A stretch of 64,000 nucleotides of DNA from Roseobacter ponti (GTDB lineage: Bacteria; Pseudomonadota; Alphaproteobacteria; Rhodobacterales; Rhodobacteraceae), in contig NZ_CP048788.1 of assembly GCF_012932215.1 (NCBI RefSeq), positions 2,790,001 through 2,854,000 on the forward strand. The letters are read 5' to 3'. The notes under the pieces were generated by a model that saw only the letters and a list, made by a program, of their open reading frames with translations, searched no databases and was not told the origin of the DNA. The position numbers and the translations under genes were made by a program. This document shows, one piece after another, positions 400-10,029 of this stretch; position 1 is the first letter of the stretch; each line of letters opens with the position of its first letter.

Positions 400-2100
400 T
401 CAGATCTCGTCGGGGAAGTGTTTCATCACATGCCGGATCGGGTTTGGCGCGGCCTGCCCCAGACCGCAGATCGAAGCATCGACCATCGCGGTGCTGAGCT
501 CTTCGAGCAGCCCCTGATCCCAGTGTTCCGCCTGCATCAGCTTGACCGCTTTTTCGCAACCCACCCGACAGGGCGTGCACTGGCCACAGCTCTCGTCCTC
601 AAAGAACCGCAGCATATTCAGCGCGGCATCGCGCGCCCTGTCTTTGTCCGACAAAATTACTACGGCAGCCGAGCCGATGAATGATCCCAGCGGCTGCAGC
701 GTATCGAAATCCAGCGGCACGTCGGCCATGCTGGCCGGCAGGATGCCGGAGGATGGCCCGCCCGGCTGATAGGCACGGAATGTATGGCCATCGCGCATGC
801 CACCTGCGGCATCAATGATGTCCGTGATCGTCGATCCGGCGGGCAGCTGGTAAACACCAGGTGCGGCCACGCGGCCCGAAACCGAGTAACTGCGCATTCC
901 TTTGCGGCCGTTTTTTTCCACTGAAGAGAGAATCTCAGGACCCTCACGACAGACCCGCGCCACCCAGTGCAGAGTTTCAACGTTGTGCACCAGCGTCGGG
1001 CGCCCGAAAACGCCGACCTGTGCCACGTAAGGAGGGCGGTGACGCGGCATCCCGCGTTTGCCCTCGATGCTCTCAATCATCGCGGACTCTTCGCCACAGA
1101 TATACGCGCCGGCACCGCGGCGCAGATCGATGAAACCGGGCTTCACGATGCCGGCCTCTTCCAGCGCACGGATCTCGCGGGCGAGGATCTCAAGCACGGC
1201 AGGGTATTCGTCGCGCATATAGATGAAGGCCGTTTCCGCCTCGACCGCCCAGGCAGCAATCAGCATGCCTTCGAGAAAGAGATGTGGCACCCGCTCAAGA
1301 TAGTAACGGTCTTTGAACGTGCCGGGCTCGCCCTCGTCCCCGTTCACGGCCAGATACCGCGGGCCGGAAGCGGCGCGCACAAAGCCCCATTTTTTCCCCG
1401 ACGGGAAACCCGCACCGCCCAGGCCGCGCAGGCCGGACGCCAGCACCTTGTCCTGTACGGCTTCCCAGTCGCCGCCTGCCCGCAGGGATTTCAACGTCTC
1501 ATAACCACCCGCGGCCGTGTAATCCGTGAAAGTCTCATACGCCGGGATAGTTGCATGTGTCGCATCCGCCCTGATGGCAGCGCGGACCTTTTCAGGCGTG
1601 GCGTGATCGATGTGGGCGTGGCCCAGTTCCAGCACGGGTGCGGTATCGCAGCGGCCCATGCAGGGCGCGCGCAGCACACGGACCTCTGCCGGGTCCAGCC
1701 CCTCCTCAAGCGCTGCTTTGAGCGTCTGCGCCCCCGCCAGTTCGCAGGAAAGCGAATCGCAGACCCGGATGGTCAGCGCGGGCGGCGGGGTCTCGCCCTC
1801 TTTAACCACGTCGAAATGGGCGTAAAACGTAGCAACCTCATAGACTTCGGCCATCGACAGGCGCATCTCTTCTGCCAGTGCGCGCAGATGCGCAGCGGAC
1901 AGATGGCCGTGTGCATCCTGGATCAGGTGCAGAAATTCAATCAGCAGATCGCGCCGGCGCGGCCGGTCACCCAGCAGAGCGCGGACCTCATTCCAGGCGT
2001 CGTCCTGCAACTGCCGGCCTTTGGTGTGGCGGCGGCCTTTGCCAGCCCCCGATTTCCACACGCCCCTGCGGTCGGATTTATCAGAATTATCCAGTGCCAT
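400..2100 (-). CDS. Fused NuoE/NuoF-type NAD-dependent diaphorase subunit (formate dehydrogenase beta-like)
   Basis: This 566-residue protein joins a 24 kDa (NuoE-like) domain to a 51 kDa (NuoF-like) domain. The first domain carries four Cys for a [2Fe-2S] cluster in CDSLSC and APCMGRC. The second has the FMN/NADH motifs GLGGAGFPSGKKW, VNGDEGEPGTFKDR and GAGAYICGEESAM, and the [4Fe-4S] ligands CGQCTPCRVGC plus a distal Cys in SICGLGQ. Such subunits pass electrons between NAD and the catalytic subunit of soluble formate dehydrogenase (FdsB type) or a related complex. No molybdenum subunit lies next to it here, so the partner is unknown. ATG 2100 is preferred over GTG 2103 because GGAG lies 7 bases upstream of it. 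Confidence 0.85.
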   Translation of the reverse strand: MALDNSDKSDRRGVWKSGAGKGRRHTKGRQLQDDAWNEVRALLGDRPRRRDLLIEFLHLIQDAHGHLSAAHLRALAEEMRLSMAEVYEVATFYAHFDVVKEGETPPPALTIRVCDSLSCELAGAQTLKAALEEGLDPAEVRVLRAPCMGRCDTAPVLELGHAHIDHATPEKVRAAIRADATHATIPAYETFTDYTAAGGYETLKSLRAGGDWEAVQDKVLASGLRGLGGAGFPSGKKWGFVRAASGPRYLAVNGDEGEPGTFKDRYYLERVPHLFLEGMLIAAWAVEAETAFIYMRDEYPAVLEILAREIRALEEAGIVKPGFIDLRRGAGAYICGEESAMIESIEGKRGMPRHRPPYVAQVGVFGRPTLVHNVETLHWVARVCREGPEILSSVEKNGRKGMRSYSVSGRVAAPGVYQLPAGSTITDIIDAAGGMRDGHTFRAYQPGGPSSGILPASMADVPLDFDTLQPLGSFIGSAAVVILSDKDRARDAALNMLRFFEDESCGQCTPCRVGCEKAVKLMQAEHWDQGLLEELSTAMVDASICGLGQAAPNPIRHVMKHFPDEI

Positions 2101-2318
2101 CACGTTTCTCCGGCTCTTTGCGCGGCCTGCGCGGCCGTGTTGTATTTCGCGTACTGATCACAGAGTAACAGCCCTGCGACGCCCTGAATAACCGCAATCG
2201 GGGGAGCCCGGACAGTCAGAAACGACAATCCCGTGTCCTATCCGAAACTTCCAGCATTAACCGCGACATCGCAGCACGCTTGGAGGTGGGCTGCGAAAGA
2301 GGTAAACAAAGGGTTAAT

Positions 2319-3389
2319 ATGACACGCTTTGCGCCCTCCGCTGTCTTCATGCTGGCCAGCCTCCTGCCCGGGGCCTGCCTGCTGGCGGGCGCCTTTCTGG
2401 GCGGCGTGTGGAGTGCGGCGGGACTTATCACGATGACACTTGTGGTCTTTTTATGCGACCGCGCGAGCTTTGCCGCGCGCGCGGGCCCCGGACTGGCCAA
2501 AGTGCAGCCCCTGCTGATCGCGGGCCTGCATTTCACGATACTTCCTGCCGTTCTGCTGGCCATCGGCATGCCGGGGCATCTGAGCGGTGCTGAAACAGTT
2601 TTACTGCTGCTGGGTGCGGGGCTTTTTTTCGGGCAGGTGTCAAATGCCTGTGCGCATGAACTCATCCACAGGCAGAGCCGCGCGGCGCGCCGCCTCGGTG
2701 CTGCAATCTATGTGTCTCTGCTCAACGGACAGCATGTTTCGGCGCATCTGCTGGTGCATCATGTACATGCCGGGACGGACAAAGACCCTAACTCAGCGCC
2801 GCTCGGCCAGAGCTTCTGGCAGTTCGCCGCCCGCGCATCGGTGACGGAATTTGCCGCCGGCTGGCGCGCCGAAACCGCGAGGCAGCGCCCCGGACAGCTG
2901 CACCCCTATGCGATCTGGCTGGGCGGTGCTGCCTTTACACTTGTCACGGCCGGGCTGCTGGCCGGAGTTGCCGGCATTGCCGCACTGATCGCGATGAGCG
3001 TTTACGCGCAACTGCAGCTCCTGCTGTCCGATTATCTGCAGCACTATGGCCTGCGCCGTCGCAGGGTGGCAGGCGGCCGCACCGAACCAATGGGACCACA
3101 GCACAGCTGGAACGCGCCGCAGCCCTGGTCTGCCGCCCTGATGCTGAACGCGCCGCTGCATTCGGATCACCACATGCACCCGGGCCGATCGTTCGATCAG
3201 CTGTACCTTGATCCGGATCGCGCGCCGGTCCTGCCACGGTCCGTGCCCGTCATGGGCGCGCTGGCCTTTGTGCCGCCGCTCTGGCGGCGCGTGATGGACC
3301 CCAGAGTACGCCGGCTGACCGGTGAAATGCCACGCAGTTCGGAACCCGACACCCGCCCTTCCGCTTCGACTGAAACATTAAGTATATGA
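2319..3389 (+). CDS. alkB: Alkane 1-monooxygenase (AlkB-type membrane di-iron hydroxylase)
   Basis: The 356-residue integral membrane protein has several long hydrophobic segments and the histidine boxes of the AlkB/fatty acid desaturase superfamily: AHELIHR, HLLVHHVHAGTDKDP, LQHYGL and HSDHHMHP. These bind the two irons that hydroxylate medium-chain alkanes at the terminal carbon using rubredoxin-supplied electrons. No rubredoxin or rubredoxin reductase is adjacent. ATG 2319 is chosen over 2280 because the extra 13 residues are polar and the hydrophobic N-terminus begins right after it. The gene is divergent from the diaphorase gene. Fatty acid desaturase is the alternative, but the box spacing favours AlkB. 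Confidence 0.85.
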   Translation: MTRFAPSAVFMLASLLPGACLLAGAFLGGVWSAAGLITMTLVVFLCDRASFAARAGPGLAKVQPLLIAGLHFTILPAVLLAIGMPGHLSGAETVLLLLGAGLFFGQVSNACAHELIHRQSRAARRLGAAIYVSLLNGQHVSAHLLVHHVHAGTDKDPNSAPLGQSFWQFAARASVTEFAAGWRAETARQRPGQLHPYAIWLGGAAFTLVTAGLLAGVAGIAALIAMSVYAQLQLLLSDYLQHYGLRRRRVAGGRTEPMGPQHSWNAPQPWSAALMLNAPLHSDHHMHPGRSFDQLYLDPDRAPVLPRSVPVMGALAFVPPLWRRVMDPRVRRLTGEMPRSSEPDTRPSASTETLSI

Positions 3390-3398
3390 GATACGATT

Positions 3399-3806
3399 AT
3401 GAATTTATTTACTAAAGGCGTGATTTTTAGCCTCGCTGTTTCGCTTGCAGCGCCAGCTGTGGCAGAGGGGGTTCTGGATGGCGAAGCCTTCGATGCATAC
3501 ACCCGGGGAAAGACATTGTTTTACGGTCAGGATGGTGCTGCATACGGGGCCGAGCGGTATTTTGCAGACCGTCGCGTGCAGTGGACGTTTCTGGACGGAG
3601 AATGCAAAGAGGGCGAGTGGTATGAACAGGCTGGCCAGATCTGTTTTGTCTATGAAGATAATCCGGACCCGCAATGCTGGACTTTCCGCAAAAACGGCGA
3701 CGGCCTGACTGCAGATTTCAAGAACGTACCCGGAATGACCGAGCTTTATGAGGCTTCGGATCTGGATGAAGAGATGATCTGCCTCGCGCCCAATCTCGGC
3801 GTCTGA
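3399..3806 (+). CDS. Small secreted protein of unknown function
   Basis: The 135-residue protein has a classic signal peptide (basic start, hydrophobic core, AVAEG cleavage region), so export is likely. The mature part is acidic and has four Cys (DGECKEGEW, QICFVYED, PQCWTF, EMICLAP), suggesting disulfides in the periplasm. It follows alkB by 9 bases and may be co-transcribed. I do not recognise a family and assign no function. Confidence 0.7.
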   Translation: MNLFTKGVIFSLAVSLAAPAVAEGVLDGEAFDAYTRGKTLFYGQDGAAYGAERYFADRRVQWTFLDGECKEGEWYEQAGQICFVYEDNPDPQCWTFRKNGDGLTADFKNVPGMTELYEASDLDEEMICLAPNLGV

Positions 3807-3809
3807 GCC

Positions 3810-5369
3810 TCAGAAAAGCGACCCCTGCCCGGGCGCTTTTGGCTTGCGCGGGGCCTTGCGTGGTGCCGCACCACCTGATGTGCCCCGCTCCAGTATCACG
3901 CGACCGTCGGCAAACTGGATCTCCAGTCGCTGCGCTTTTTCTGCGACATTACTCCGTGTCACCACGGATCCTTCACTGCGGACAACGGCAAAGCCGCGCT
4001 CCAGTGTGGCCTCATATCCCAGCGTGCGGCGTAAACGCTCCGCGCCATCGATTTTGCGCTTCCAGGCTGCGATCTGCCGCTGCCCGGCGTCAGAGAGCCG
4101 TGCCGCCACATCCCTGAGCTGGCGTTCTTTACGGCTGTTCTCGCGGGCAAAAGCGTCAGGCCGAAAACGCCGGAGTTGTGTTGCGAGCCGGTCTTTTTTC
4201 ACGGAAACGGTGCGCATCAGAGCCGGCTCCAGCCGGACGGCATGGTCTGCAAGGCGTTTGCGGTCAACCGCGACGGCACGGCGCAGCGTTGCCGGTCTCA
4301 GCGAGCCGCTGACATCCGCCAGGCGTACTTTGCGCCGCTGCACACCCGCCATCAGCGCAGGGCCGAGGCGCGCAGCACGGATATCGAGCCGCTGGCGCGG
4401 TGTTTCCAGCAGGCTGTCAGGGCGCGGCAGCGCACGGGCCAGATCACGCAGACGCTGCCCGCGTCGCGTCAGACCATTGCTCAGCGCCTGGCGCATGCGC
4501 GCGTCCTGCCCGTCGAGCCAGGCAATCAGCTCATGACGGACCGGAACAGCCAGTTCCGCTGCAGCCGTCGGCGTGGGCGCGCGATGGTCTGAGACGAAGT
4601 CGATCAGCGTGGTATCCGTTTCATGGCCCACCGCGGAAATCAGCGGGATTTCGGAAGCCGCAGCCGCCCGTGCGACGATTTCTTCATTAAAGCCCCACAG
4701 GTCCTCAACCGAGCCGCCGCCCCGTGCCACGATCAGCAGATCGGGCCGTGGCAGCGCGCCACCCGGGCTCATGGCGTTGAAACCTTCGATGGCCGCGGCA
4801 ACTTCAGGGGCGCATTTCTCACCCTGAACGGCCACCGGCCAGATCAGCACTTTGCGCGGAAAACGGTCGCGCAGCCGGTGCAGAATATCGCGGATCACAG
4901 CACCCGACGGCGAGGTCACCACACCGATCACTTCGGGCAGATAGGGCAGCGGCTTTTTGCGCGCGGCATCAAAAAGACCTTCTGCCTCCAGCGCTTTGCG
5001 GCGTTTTTCCAACAGCGCCATCAGCGCGCCCATGCCCGCGGGTTTGATGTCTTCGATGATGATCTGGTACTTCGACTGACCGCCGAATGTCGTCACACGG
5101 CCCGTGGCGATGACTTCCATCCCCTCTTCGGGCGCGGTCTGCAGACGGGCCGCCACCCCTTTCCAGATCACGCCGGAGATCACCGCGCGGTCGTCCTTGA
5201 GGTCGAGATAGATGTGGCCTGAGCGGGGCCGCGACACGCGCCCCACCTCGCCTTTGATCCGCACATGCCCAAACTCGCCCTCGATCACCCGCTTGATCGC
5301 ACCAGAAAGCTCGGTCACGGTGAATTCGGGGCTGTTGAGGCCTTCGTCGGGGCTGTCGATCAGGTCCAT
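3810..5369 (-). CDS. xseA: Exodeoxyribonuclease VII large subunit
   Basis: The 519-residue protein has the N-terminal OB-fold DNA-binding domain (about residues 15-110, with the family stretch GHIYLDLKDDRAVISGV) and the catalytic domain with GVVTSPSGAVIRDI, ARGGGSVEDLWGFNEE and SAVGHETDTTLIDFVSD. It then has a long basic, helical region and a short basic tail. It forms ExoVII with XseB, degrading single-stranded DNA to oligonucleotides in repair. The small subunit is not in this window. The gene is convergent with the small secreted protein and divergent from purD. Confidence 0.95.
   Translation of the reverse strand: MDLIDSPDEGLNSPEFTVTELSGAIKRVIEGEFGHVRIKGEVGRVSRPRSGHIYLDLKDDRAVISGVIWKGVAARLQTAPEEGMEVIATGRVTTFGGQSKYQIIIEDIKPAGMGALMALLEKRRKALEAEGLFDAARKKPLPYLPEVIGVVTSPSGAVIRDILHRLRDRFPRKVLIWPVAVQGEKCAPEVAAAIEGFNAMSPGGALPRPDLLIVARGGGSVEDLWGFNEEIVARAAAASEIPLISAVGHETDTTLIDFVSDHRAPTPTAAAELAVPVRHELIAWLDGQDARMRQALSNGLTRRGQRLRDLARALPRPDSLLETPRQRLDIRAARLGPALMAGVQRRKVRLADVSGSLRPATLRRAVAVDRKRLADHAVRLEPALMRTVSVKKDRLATQLRRFRPDAFARENSRKERQLRDVAARLSDAGQRQIAAWKRKIDGAERLRRTLGYEATLERGFAVVRSEGSVVTRSNVAEKAQRLEIQFADGRVILERGTSGGAAPRKAPRKPKAPGQGSLF
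3814..3840. terminator. Bidirectional terminator inside the 3' end of xseA
   Basis: AAAAGCG (3814-3820) and CGCTTTT (3834-3840) form a stem with a 13-base loop. Read on the plus strand it ends in a T tract just past the small secreted protein. Read on the minus strand the T tract falls at the last codons and stop of xseA, so the hairpin is coding sequence for xseA. Confidence 0.5.
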
Positions 5370-5450
5370 CTCTGCTCTGGTGTTGTTGTTTGCTCAGCCG
5401 CAGCTTAGAACGCCCGAAAACCAATTGCCATGCAGATCGGGAGCCCCGCT

Positions 5451-6713
5451 ATGAACATTCTTATCCTTGGCAGTGGCGGGCGCGAACACGCTCTGGCCTG
5501 GGCGGTGATGCAGAACCCCAAATGCGACCGTCTGATCGTGGCGCCGGGCAATGCGGGGATTGCCGATATCGCCGACTGCGCAACGCTTGATATCGAAAAC
5601 GGCAGCGCTGTGGTAAATTTCGCCGAAGAGAGTGCCATCGATTTTGTGATCATCGGCCCCGAGGCACCACTGGCCGCCGGCGTGGCCGACCGGCTGCGGG
5701 ACGCGGGCATTCTGGTCTTCGGGCCGGGTGCGGCGGCCGCACGGCTTGAGGCGTCAAAGTCCTTCACCAAGGAGATCTGTGACGCGGCGGGCGCGCCGAC
5801 GGCCGCCTGGGGCCACTTCACCGATGCAAAAGCTGCGCGTGACTATGTCCGCAAACAGGGTGCGCCGATTGTGATCAAGGCGGATGGGCTGGCGGCCGGC
5901 AAGGGCGTTATTATCGCACAAACCGCGGAAGAAGCAGACGCCGCGATTGACGATATGTTCGGCGGCGCCTTTGGCGACGCCGGTGCCGAGGTGGTGATTG
6001 AGGAGTTCATGGAGGGCGAAGAGGCATCTTTCTTTGTGCTCTGTGACGGCGAGACGGTGCTGCCCGTGGGCACGGCTCAGGACCACAAGCGCGTTGGTGA
6101 CGGCGATACCGGGCCCAACACCGGCGGTATGGGGGCTTATTCGCCCGCACCGGTGATGACGGACGCGGTTATTGAAACCACCCTTGAGACGATTGTGCGT
6201 CCGACGATGGCGGAGATGACAGCGCGTGGTATGCCCTATCAGGGTGTCCTCTTTGTGGGGCTCATGATCAGGGACGGGGTGCCGCGGCTGGTGGAGTACA
6301 ACGTCCGTTTCGGGGATCCGGAGTGCCAGGTACTTATGATGCGGCTTGGTGCTCAGGTGCTGGACCTGATGCATGCCACAGCAGAAGCGCGGCTTTCCCG
6401 GACGCGGGTAAACTGGGCGGAGGATCATGCGCTGACGGTGGTAATGGCCACGCGGGGCTATCCGGGCGCCTATGAAAAAGGCTCGGAGATCCGGGGCCTT
6501 GAGGCCCTGCCCGAGGACAGCCGCCGCATGGTTTTCCACGCCGGTACCGGGCGCACCGGGGGTAAGCTGGTCGCGCAGGGAGGTCGGGTTCTGGCCGTCA
6601 CCTGCCGGGCCGAGAGCCTGAGTGCGGCGCGCGATGCAGCTTATGCCATGGTTGACGATGTGGACTGGCCGGAAGGCTTTTGCCGCAGCGATATCGGGTG
6701 GCGCGCCCTCTGA
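5451..6713 (+). CDS. purD: Phosphoribosylamine-glycine ligase (GAR synthetase)
   Basis: The 420-residue ATP-grasp enzyme joins phosphoribosylamine to glycine in the second step of purine synthesis. Visible motifs are the N-terminal LGSGGREHALAW, IGPEAPLAAGVADRLR, the ATP-grasp lysine region IKADGLAAGKGVI, NTGGMGAYSPAPV and the metal-binding VRFGDPECQ. The start at 5451 gives the canonical MNILILGSGGRE N-terminus; the in-frame ATG at 5430 adds seven uncharacteristic residues. It is divergent from xseA with an 81-base gap. Confidence 0.97.
   Translation: MNILILGSGGREHALAWAVMQNPKCDRLIVAPGNAGIADIADCATLDIENGSAVVNFAEESAIDFVIIGPEAPLAAGVADRLRDAGILVFGPGAAAARLEASKSFTKEICDAAGAPTAAWGHFTDAKAARDYVRKQGAPIVIKADGLAAGKGVIIAQTAEEADAAIDDMFGGAFGDAGAEVVIEEFMEGEEASFFVLCDGETVLPVGTAQDHKRVGDGDTGPNTGGMGAYSPAPVMTDAVIETTLETIVRPTMAEMTARGMPYQGVLFVGLMIRDGVPRLVEYNVRFGDPECQVLMMRLGAQVLDLMHATAEARLSRTRVNWAEDHALTVVMATRGYPGAYEKGSEIRGLEALPEDSRRMVFHAGTGRTGGKLVAQGGRVLAVTCRAESLSAARDAAYAMVDDVDWPEGFCRSDIGWRAL

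Positions 6714-7479: not shown

Positions 7480-7480
<1 letters not shown>
6734..7480 (-). CDS. Secreted FG-GAP/VCBS repeat protein
   Basis: The 248-residue protein has a basic N-terminus, a hydrophobic segment and a GPAFAG cleavage region, so it is probably exported. The mature part has two calcium-loop-like repeats, HDLNGDGAPEVVV and ADLDGDGTVEIAW, as in FG-GAP beta-propeller blades. Only two clear blades are visible, so the propeller may be degenerate. Its ATG overlaps the ferredoxin stop (ATGA at 7479-7482 on the minus strand), indicating translational coupling. The role is unknown. Confidence 0.75.
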
Positions 7481-7827
<347 letters not shown>

Positions 7828-7910
7828 TCAGCTTTCTCTACCGGGGGCATATAGGACGTGCCAGCCTCTTTTGCGACCCGGAAAAAAGATGTTTGCGACA
7901 GCCAGACTTT

Positions 7911-7925
7911 GTTCTATATTTGTTC
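7911..7925 (+). promoter_or_regulatory. LexA (SOS) box GTTC-N7-GTTC
   Basis: GTTC at 7911-7914 and GTTC at 7922-7925 are separated by exactly seven bases, the direct-repeat LexA operator of alphaproteobacteria. It ends two bases before the ATG at 7928, so LexA would sit on the transcription start region. Confidence 0.75.
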
Positions 7926-7927
7926 TC

Positions 7928-8308
7928 ATGTATGTTGTCCGTCCTCCTTCCGCGCCCCGCCCGTCAGAAAGTGCTGAGACCTGGCCGCGCCCGCCATCCT
8001 GTCTGGTGGCAGAGCGCCTGCACGCGCCGCCGCTGAATGCTCGGGTCACGGTGGCCGGGCTGGTTATCCTGCGCCAGCGCCCGGGCACCGCCAAAGGCGT
8101 GATCTTTATCACGCTTGAGGACGAGACCGGCGTGGTCAATGTGATCGTCTGGCGCCATATCTACGAACGTTTCCGGCGCGCCGTGGTCGCGGGCCGCATG
8201 CTGCGCGTCACCGGCCGCCTGCAGCGGGCACATTCGGTCACCCATGTGCTGGCCGAAGAGATTGAGGACATTTCCGCCATGCTCGACAGCCTCGTCACGG
8301 TGCCCTGA
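7928..8308 (+). CDS. Orphan OB-fold protein matching the C-terminal domain of error-prone polymerase DnaE2 (ImuC)
   Basis: The 126-residue protein has a Pro-rich N-terminus, then an OB-fold with VTVAGLVILRQRPGTAKGVI, FITLEDETGVVNVIVW and LRVTGRLQR, closely matching the last ~90 residues of DnaE2. No polymerase catalytic domain lies upstream; the preceding gene is a divergent ferredoxin. It is therefore either a decayed fragment or a free-standing nucleic-acid-binding protein. A perfect SOS box lies immediately upstream, so damage-induced expression is likely. ATG 7928 is chosen because the SOS box abuts it; no Shine-Dalgarno is possible there, so translation may be leaderless. In-frame ATGs at 7820 and 7889 lie upstream of the SOS box. 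Confidence 0.7.
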   Translation: MYVVRPPSAPRPSESAETWPRPPSCLVAERLHAPPLNARVTVAGLVILRQRPGTAKGVIFITLEDETGVVNVIVWRHIYERFRRAVVAGRMLRVTGRLQRAHSVTHVLAEEIEDISAMLDSLVTVP

Positions 8309-8316
8309 GCGCGCAG

Positions 8317-8344
8317 AAAAGGCGCCCCGCGAGAGGCGCCTTTT
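8317..8344. terminator. Bidirectional intrinsic terminator
   Basis: A run of A (8317-8320), GGCGCC (8321-8326), an 8-base loop, GGCGCC (8335-8340) and TTTT form a symmetrical terminator between the convergent orphan OB gene and degP. Confidence 0.8.
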
Positions 8345-8365
8345 CCGGTTTTGTTCAGTAAGTGT

Positions 8366-9829
8366 TTACTCTGCGAGTGACAGCGCCACAAAGCGCGGAT
8401 CACCGGCACGGCGCACAAGCAGCAGCAGCGATTTACGTCCTGCTTCCTGTGCCGCCTCGACACGCTCCTGAAGTTCTGCCACGGTGCCCACCTTCTGCTG
8501 GCCCGCTTCGGTGATCACGTCACCGGCGCGCAGGCCTTTTTCAAAGGCTTCGGACGCTTCATCCACGTCTGTCACAGCAAGGCCGCTCATGTCGGTTCCG
8601 ATGCCGAGCTCTTCGCGCAGCTCATCCGTAAGCATCGTCAGCGTCAGGCCCAGCATTTCAGTTGCAACAGGCTCATCCTCTTCGTCTGGTGCCTGCGCCA
8701 CGGCCGGCACAGCACCTTCCGCTTCCTCGCGACGGCCAAGCGTCACTTTGAGCACCTGAGATTTGCCTTCGCGCAGAACGGTGACACGCACCGTTTCGCC
8801 CACAGGGCTGTTGCCTACACGGCGCACAAGTCCGCGGGTGTCTGCCACTTCCTTGCCCGCAAAGCTGATGATCACATCACCGGCTTCCATGCCCGCTTCA
8901 CGCGCAGGGCCTTCAGGTACATCCGTGACCAGAGCGCCGGCGGTGCTCTCCAGACCCATGGATTCGGCCAGATCATCGGTCAGATCCTGGATCCGTACAC
9001 CCAGCCAGCCGCGGCGTGTTTCGCCGAACTCTTTGAGCTGGTCGATGACGCGGGTAACGACGTTTGAGGCCATCGAAAAGCCGATACCGATCGAGCCACC
9101 ATTTGGCGACAGGATCGCTGTGTTCACGCCGATCACATCACCGTCCATGTTGAACAGCGGACCACCCGAGTTGCCGCGGTTAATCGCGGCGTCGGTCTGG
9201 ATGTAATCGTCATAGGTGCCGCTGAGAGCACGGTTGCGCGCCGATACGATCCCCGCGGAAACAGAGAACCCCTGCCCCAGCGGGTTGCCCATCGCGATGA
9301 CCCAGTCGCCCACGCGGGCCACATCGCTGTCACCGAAAGACACAAACGGCAGCGGAGCGTCGGCTTCCACTTTCAGCAGAGCGATATCGGTGTTGGGGTC
9401 AGTGCCGATCACTTCAGCTTTGAGTTCATCACCGTTGAAAAATTCGATAAGGATCTCATCGGCCCCTTCAATCACGTGGTTATTGGTGACCACGTAACCG
9501 TCTTCGGAAATCACAAAGCCCGATCCGAGTGCCGATGAGCGCCGCGGGCTGTCGCCGTCACCGCCACGGTCGCGGAAGAAATCCTCAAAGGGCGAACCTT
9601 CAGGCACGATTCCCTGCGGGCCGGTGGGCCGCGAGACAACTGTTGATGTTGTGATGTTGACCACGGACGGGCTGATTTTCTCCGCCAGCGGTGCAAGACT
9701 TGACTGCTGGGCCAGCGCGCTGAGCGGCTGGAACAGCATAAATACCAGCGTCAGAACCGCCAGCATGAGCACACGCATCTGCGTGGCATCGGAATTAATT
9801 TTTGACAAGGATACTGCCTTGGGCTGCAT
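8366..9829 (-). CDS. Periplasmic Do-like serine protease/chaperone (DegP/HtrA)
   Basis: The 487-residue protein has a signal sequence (hydrophobic core ending QPLSALAQQ). The trypsin-like domain has a catalytic His in YVVTNNHVI, an Asp in TDIALLKV and a Ser in GNSGGPLFN. Two PDZ domains follow (RGWLGVRIQ onward and the last ~90 residues, linked by an acidic segment). It degrades or refolds damaged envelope proteins. ATG 9829 is preferred because AGGAGG lies 7-8 bases upstream and the signal peptide follows. It is the last gene after hflK-hflC-DUF2065, a membrane quality-control group. Two 18-base direct repeats lie 50-90 bases upstream. Confidence 0.93.
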   Translation of the reverse strand: MQPKAVSLSKINSDATQMRVLMLAVLTLVFMLFQPLSALAQQSSLAPLAEKISPSVVNITTSTVVSRPTGPQGIVPEGSPFEDFFRDRGGDGDSPRRSSALGSGFVISEDGYVVTNNHVIEGADEILIEFFNGDELKAEVIGTDPNTDIALLKVEADAPLPFVSFGDSDVARVGDWVIAMGNPLGQGFSVSAGIVSARNRALSGTYDDYIQTDAAINRGNSGGPLFNMDGDVIGVNTAILSPNGGSIGIGFSMASNVVTRVIDQLKEFGETRRGWLGVRIQDLTDDLAESMGLESTAGALVTDVPEGPAREAGMEAGDVIISFAGKEVADTRGLVRRVGNSPVGETVRVTVLREGKSQVLKVTLGRREEAEGAVPAVAQAPDEEDEPVATEMLGLTLTMLTDELREELGIGTDMSGLAVTDVDEASEAFEKGLRAGDVITEAGQQKVGTVAELQERVEAAQEAGRKSLLLLVRRAGDPRFVALSLAE

Positions 9830-9877
9830 TCGTCGCCTCCTGACTCTCGTTTCAGATCCTTGAGATCTGTTTTGCAC

Positions 9878-9918
9878 ACTGCATGTGTGGTGACACACAG
9901 ACTGCATGTAGGGTGACA
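9878..9918 (-). repeat. Two direct repeats, 23-bp period, upstream of degP
   Basis: The copies at 9878-9895 and 9901-9918 match at 16 of 18 bases (core ACTGCATGT, two variable bases, GGTGACA). The period of about two helical turns upstream of the degP start looks like a binding site for a regulator dimer. CACAC-TGCAT-GTGTG (9875-9889) overlaps the first copy. Confidence 0.5.
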
Positions 9919-10029
9919 TCCGTGCAACATCCAAGATGGTTCGCGGTGTCAGAGTTTCAACAGTATGTTACCAAAGCGTGAAGAAACGGTGCGTTGATCA
10001 GAACATCGCCGGCAAAGGCATCAGAGCCT

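Follow-up and report, generated by a model that had tools for sequence, protein, structure and literature searches.

The 64,000-nt stretch of the Roseobacter ponti genome analyzed here (hereafter, the window) carries a small gene for a stand-alone OB-fold protein of 126 residues (positions 7928–8308, + strand). It is a real, conserved gene with an SOS box in front, and its nearest match is the C-terminal end of the error-prone polymerase DnaE2. The only DnaE2 found in the same genome is devoid of exactly this OB domain, and the stand-alone form tracks truncated DnaE2 proteins, suggesting that the missing part is supplied in trans. Our preferred reading, to which we give a probability of about three in four, is a split error-prone polymerase DnaE2, whose OB domain was detached by gene fission and would work in trans by interacting with the truncated core, as judged from sequence comparisons.

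The stand-alone OB-fold gene and its SOS box

The ATG at 7928 opens an intact frame of 126 codons, the stop codon of which ends at 8308. A direct scan with the DnaE2 family profile NF004225 gave an E-value of 3.6e-31 for profile positions 942–1039 of 1047 only, and residues 40–115 matched the OB-fold family PF01336 (E 1.3e-13; 51.1 bits against a curated cut-off of 27). The earlier note, made from the sequence alone, had taken the body of the frame for the last domain of DnaE2, and both profiles agree with that assignment. The product is not a DnaE2 in its own right, as the PHP, catalytic Pol3, and (HhH)2 regions are absent. The OB-fold domain proper (8045–8272, + strand) was modeled with AlphaFold2 from 34 sequences (mean pLDDT 73.6) and has a β-β-β-α-β-β arrangement; this OB topology and the score over the cut-off identify it as an OB-fold nucleic-acid-binding domain. 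The nearest solved folds retrieved by Foldseek are those of Stn1, RPA, aminoacyl-tRNA synthetases (LysRS), and SsbA, with TM-scores of approximately 0.4 to 0.6. No DnaE-type polymerase was present among the best 50 Foldseek rows, and the OB profile matched no sequence of a solved structure at an E-value of 0.01. For eight congener pairs, the dN/dS of the OB part ranged from 0.019 to 0.091, indicating strong purifying selection, far from the value of about 1 against which the earlier note had set its view of a living gene.

The stand-alone proteins also carry a short motif in front of the fold. In the window it reads WPRPP (residues 19–23; 7982–7996, + strand). Of 124 distinct stand-alone frames, 118 have W-P-x-P-P (or W-I-x-P-P) no more than 45 residues ahead of an RQRPG stretch. 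Its tryptophan and three prolines are invariant in 34 aligned stand-alone OB proteins, and the linkers of 49 full-length DnaE2 proteins contain no WPxPP at all. Six frames do not show it: a dnaE2 fragment in G003 (L023), a piece of a full-length gene in G196 (L269), a frame cut by a contig edge (L247), one that reads WHRPP (L250), the frame of G101 (L277), and L254. The frame of G101, which was counted as present, lacks a perfect box, WPxPP, and a ferredoxin neighbor by motif. A further frame, from G255, was missed by the motif search and stands outside the 124; it is likewise without WPxPP. The motif is a candidate docking peptide of the free OB domain.

An SOS box of the LexA type, GTTC-N7-GTTC, occupies 7911–7925 on the + strand with the sequence GTTCTATATTTGTTC, 2 nt 5′ of the ATG, just as originally described. 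The number of perfect boxes inside the window (1, against 1.81 expected in shuffles) is not above chance, so the evidence for this box is its position and its conservation. Of 5000 100-nt stretches taken at random from the window, 4 hold a perfect box, and the whole genome contains 92 perfect boxes versus 21 for the reversed pattern. Several of 20 genomic boxes inspected, which had been picked for their spacers, have no gene start nearby; therefore, a box alone says little. In all 10 congeneric OB genes, GTTC-N7-GTTC lies 2 nt before the ATG, and the entire 15-mer, spacer included, is identical; upstream of it, 9 of 58 bases are invariant across the ten congeneric genomes when the box is used as the alignment anchor. 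Within the family, a perfect box precedes the OB gene in 30 of 30 loci and the first in-frame start codon follows it by 1–3 nt in 23 and by 10–48 nt in 7, these 30 OB loci, like the 30 core loci considered below, being the best-scoring ones rather than a random draw. In the genome collection, the box is perfect in 76 of 77 contigs, with L238 as the exception; the 77 are what remains of 80 contigs after two without a frame by motif and one too near the edge. The conservation of the stand-alone form with its box across Rhodobacteraceae, for which the earlier note had proposed to look, is thereby supported.

The spacer of the box, TATATTT, contains a candidate −10 element, TATATT (7915–7920), and a candidate −35 element, TTGCGA (7893–7898, + strand), lies 16 nt 5′ of it; T7893 and T7894 are among the nine invariant upstream bases. 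With the box overlapping the −10 element, repressor and RNA polymerase would compete for the site, and the transcript may well start at or near the ATG, i.e., be leaderless. The OB gene has the LexA-regulon pattern GTTC-N7-GTTC at its promoter, and the same kind of box precedes lexA (TIGR00498) and recA in this genome, with a perfect box also before uvrA; we take the latter two genes to be recA and uvrA by their sequences. Other perfect boxes of the genome stand before a putative DNA modification/repair radical SAM protein (TIGR03916; L281, G000:C1:15600-18100), which is likely a member of the LexA regulon, and, at 12 nt, before a 152-aa protein (L285, G000:C1:1165200-1167700). The latter has no NCBIfam match at an E-value of 1e-6, and to our eye it resembles MmcB. 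In the open-access literature, surveyed mostly at the level of titles and abstracts, no LexA-binding or damage-induction data on the OB gene were found. The available main text of a LexA-site study of Dinoroseobacter shibae (PMC6473078) contains neither ‘OB-fold’ nor ‘dnaE’.

The OB gene has two neighbors that lie outside the system, and, in accordance with the initial description, neither supplies a polymerase catalytic domain. A conserved gene for an ISC-type 2Fe-2S ferredoxin (7480–7803, − strand), which marks the OB site, is divergent to the OB gene here and in 30 of the 30 best-scoring family loci, and was recognized by motif in 65 of 72 contigs tested. On the other side, a Do/HtrA-family protease gene (TIGR02037) is convergent with the OB gene (8366–9934, − strand; these coordinates are those of the longest frame, and the real start may be later). 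Between the convergent genes lies a hairpin with flanking A/T runs, likely a terminator (8316–8345). Followed by its U run, it has a folding energy of −21 kcal/mol (z −2.26), and 3 of 200 shuffles were equally good. The OB gene had been credited with a terminator of its own; the strong hairpin and U run are indeed present, but given its position between convergent genes, it may serve both of them.

The truncated DnaE2 core and its co-occurrence with the OB gene

Three proteins of this genome match the DnaE2 profile: a core, a replicative-type DnaE that falls below the NF004225 family cut-off, and the product of the window gene. The comparison with the genome's own dnaE2, which had been suggested at the outset, revealed that the core (C1:196671–199556) scores over the family cut-off at profile positions 4–938 of 1047 and ends just before the OB fold. 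In the same genome search, the window gene covers positions 943–1039. The two products together thus cover the DnaE2 family profile, apart from its last eight positions, which are unmatched. Their genes lie 2.6 Mb apart on the contig, with the OB gene at 2797.9 kb and the core at 196.7 kb; downstream of the core, 90 nt separate its stop codon from the next frame, which does not encode an OB fold. Across the ten congeneric cores, mean column identity is 89%, and PDIDVDF and the region around it, which presumably holds the active-site residues, are invariant. A box of the opposite orientation (GAAC-N7-GAAT or GAAC-N7-GAAC) precedes the core and begins 25 to 52 nt 5′ of its start codon. It was found at no more than one mismatch in all 29 best-scoring core loci with upstream sequence (1 of the 30 has none), mostly with one mismatch and perfect in 4; the same tolerance yields a box in 152 of 5000 60-nt stretches drawn at random from the window. 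A split intein joining the two halves was considered and rejected, as the OB protein, scanned against Pfam and NCBIfam, and the core, scanned against NCBIfam, matched no intein family, so there is no visible route by which the chain is rejoined.

The two genes occur together with few exceptions. Among the 19 genomes of the genus, including this one, 10 combine a truncated core with a stand-alone OB gene that is always at the same ferredoxin–HtrA site, and the other 9 have a full-length DnaE2 (a frame of approximately 1100 codons or more) and the same site without an intact OB gene; the presence of the truncated core and that of the OB gene agree in 19 of 19. Two of the nine full-length congeners retain a degenerate box at the same offset, with 3 (G016) and 4 (G003) mismatches to the 15-mer. 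These may be relics, as if the locus decayed where DnaE2 is whole; a 4-mismatch match in G011 lies at another offset, which indicates that such matches also arise by chance. When kinship within the genus was taken into account, 3 independent paths with good support (6 on the best tree) showed a change in both traits at once; the p-value is 0.25, three pairs being too few to reach significance. The tree was built from DNA adjoining the OB site and may reflect the descent of the locus instead of that of the species.

Across 295 genomes sampled from the family, 116 of 120 listed with only a truncated DnaE2 carry the OB gene, versus 3 of 119 listed with only a full-length one. These counts hold among the matches listed, with full-length genes of lower score left uncounted and 55 of the 295 genomes in neither DnaE2 list; G053, which carries both forms, was excluded from the 120 and the 119, and G134 was used as a full-length genome following the profile search. 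The Fisher p-value of 5e-59 for this association ignores kinship, and common descent accounts for some of the joint occurrence. Among the isolates that have the stand-alone gene are species of Ruegeria, Roseivivax, Roseovarius, Shimia, Leisingera, Marivita, and Mameliella. In an order-level search, every listed genome belongs to Rhodobacteraceae, with 30 genomes giving no match; the result is silent on the reach of the gene beyond this family.

The exceptions run in both directions. An OB match without a whole core was obtained in ten genomes (G039, G069, G079, G086, G109, G136, G176, G196, G255, and G309). In two of them, G069 (100% complete, in 7 contigs) and G079 (91% complete), the OB gene is boxed, and a search at an E-value of 1e-200 detected no whole DnaE2 core; the orphan boxed gene of G069 is still at the ferredoxin–HtrA site (L270, G069:C4:2081000-2086500). 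G086 (76% complete) and G176 have core matches that were not scored whole, G039 and G136 are under 85% complete, and the OB match of G109 lies near a contig end. The remaining three are the full-length genomes with an OB match. That of G196 is a contig-edge piece of the full-length gene, and those of G255 and G309 are real stand-alone genes. In G255 (L267, G255:C33:515500-520500), a boxed OB gene stands beside a cassette-type full-length DnaE2, with no split-type core detected in the genome; in G309, the full-length DnaE2 is related to the split lineage and the stand-alone OB gene has no perfect box. Conversely, a core without an OB match was found in G062 (99% complete), G082, G180, and G198. 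The unpaired genomes could reflect a recent loss or replacement, incomplete draft assemblies, or an OB function beyond DnaE2. Separately, G003, whose full-length DnaE2 is elsewhere, has an extra dnaE2 C-terminal fragment with one stop in the matched part (L071, G003:C1:3740000-3752000).

Evolution of the probable split and dispersed mutasome genes

All 24 split cores included in a quick tree of 47 DnaE2 cores, with one DnaE1 as the outgroup, fall into a single clade (SH-aLRT 97) that adjoins the full-length proteins of G309, G293, and G022. G212 falls outside this clade and represents a second, local split: its core is followed by a dimethylargininase-like gene on the opposite strand and then by the OB part (L261, G212:C12:4000-12000, 1627-6370). 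The latter has its own SOS box, GTTCTTGGTATGTTC, and a C-terminal tail ending in RDFH, as in many full-length DnaE2 proteins. In G309 (L264, G309:C88; L265, G309:C6), where a full-length DnaE2 and a stand-alone OB gene coexist, the core of the full-length protein adjoins the split clade, and its OB domain groups with those of cassette-type full-length proteins in an OB tree that is weakly resolved and in which long branches meet; a re-fusion of a split-lineage core with a foreign OB domain is possible. An AlphaFold2 model of the full-length sister from G022, made from 13 sequences, was poor (mean pLDDT 57.5) and was set aside.

Divergent homologues of the DnaE2 partners in the ImuA-ImuB-DnaE2 mutasome are also present in most of the split genomes tested. 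An ImuB-like gene was found in 38 of 40, mostly with 38–43% identity to ImuB of a cassette genome, and an ImuA-like gene, a weak match, in 31 of 39 at an E-value of 0.001; the idea that split genomes are without imuA was dropped on the latter count. A perfect box precedes 20 of the 20 ImuB-like and 19 of the 20 ImuA-like genes examined. Both genes are boxed in the present genome, where the imuB-like gene starts at 223.2 kb (box at 223159), 24 kb from the core, and the imuA-like gene lies at 2214.6 kb, approximately 2 Mb from the core, with its ATG 16 nt after the box. The genome accordingly has homologues of the mutasome components under LexA-type boxes and no contiguous imuA-imuB-dnaE2 cassette. 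That order is seen in 7 of 9 full-length congeners; the other two, G014 and G016 (L063 and L062), have a boxed imuB-dnaE2 pair with no imuA in front, and their genomes contain no ImuA match.

The system thus resembles the ImuA-ImuB-DnaE2 mutasome in the sequences of its OB domain and core, in its LexA-type boxes, and in the accompanying ImuB- and ImuA-like genes. Yet, here the OB domain is separate and distant, has its own box and an added WPxPP motif, and imuA, imuB, and dnaE2 do not form one operon. Several DnaE2 sequences without an OB domain have been reported (Timinskas et al. 2013, PMC3919608) and probably are the same kind of truncated core as that described here. OB-less DnaE2 proteins were therefore already noted in print in 2013; the portion of that paper available to us names no separate OB gene, whereas the truncated cores studied here go with a conserved, boxed OB gene in their genomes. 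The same source mentions a split cyanobacterial DnaE with a split intein. As in that case, a C-family polymerase is encoded in two pieces, but the halves scanned here show no intein match, and there are no intein halves at the junction. Stand-alone ImuB-C domains occur in mutasome variants, according to the accessible part of PMC6511836; there, too, a mutasome domain is fused in some lineages and is a separate SOS-linked gene in others, the difference being that the domain is the C-terminal one of ImuB in that case and the OB domain of the polymerase here. A 2026 survey of bacterial polymerases (PMC12926913) groups DnaE2 mutasomes, and the terms ‘OB domain’ and ‘OB-fold’ are absent from its main text as available. 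A DnaE2 OB domain acting in trans was not found in the open-access literature, which was covered mostly at the level of titles and the beginnings of abstracts.

Possible roles of the free OB domain

On the preferred reading of a split polymerase, gene fission would have separated the OB domain of DnaE2, which was kept as a gene of its own. DNA damage would remove LexA, and both halves of DnaE2 would then be made along with the separately located ImuA- and ImuB-like proteins. The OB protein would join the core, perhaps via its N-terminal WPxPP peptide, and bind template ssDNA, as is thought for the fused domain in other DnaE-type polymerases. In this way, four dispersed SOS genes would together provide a split translesion polymerase. 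A bolder version, which we regard as possible though doubtful, casts the OB protein as a licensing subunit, dissociable and induced separately, that sets when and where a weak core works, so that catalysis and template holding would be timed apart and the OB protein might be exchanged between cores. This version draws on the perfect box, the likely leaderless transcript, and the candidate docking peptide of the OB protein itself; if true, it would describe a four-locus, self-assembling SOS mutasome.

Other roles were weighed against the split polymerase. The OB domain could have left DnaE2 to become an independent SOS ssDNA-binding protein, acting alone or with ImuA, ImuB, or other repair factors and not binding the core. 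Such a protein would account for the boxed OB genes that stand without a whole core in G069 and G079 or beside a full-length DnaE2 in G255, and the added N-terminal motif and the best 50 Foldseek rows, free of DnaE-type polymerases, point the same way. However, the near one-to-one linkage with cores lacking exactly the OB domain, the complete agreement in the 19 congeners, and the rarity of the gene beside full-length DnaE2 (3/119) make it unlikely. The earlier note had favored an accessory or antagonist of translesion synthesis. As an antagonist or competitor, the free OB domain would occupy ssDNA or ImuB and so restrain DnaE2, and SOS control together with similarity to the polymerase's own domain would suit this role. 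An antagonist is nevertheless expected to be common beside complete DnaE2 proteins, and only three such genomes were found, one of them through a contig-edge fragment, while split genomes hold no fused OB domain to compete against. We consider it very improbable, and the proposal that the protein counteracts or merely assists a complete DnaE2 is not borne out in a genome whose DnaE2 has no OB domain. The same note had denied that the gene is a dead fragment, rightly so. A decayed dnaE2 fragment is ruled out by purifying selection, conserved boxes, and intact frames. The broader notion of a decaying leftover or an assembly or annotation artefact might invoke the degenerate boxes at the same offset in two of nine full-length congeners (G016 and G003), yet ω values of 0.02–0.09, intact frames, and perfect boxes in many genera leave it hardly credible.

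What the OB domain does in C-family polymerases, above all in DnaE2, is hard to study because the domain is fused to the enzyme. Here it is naturally separate in more than 100 genomes, so that it could be removed, titrated, or swapped in vivo with the polymerase untouched. The split also offers an answer to the puzzle of the ‘OB-less’ DnaE2 proteins and points to a likely function for a small gene whose product could otherwise be taken for a generic OB-fold protein. Finally, it suggests that a mutasome can be scattered across four SOS loci.
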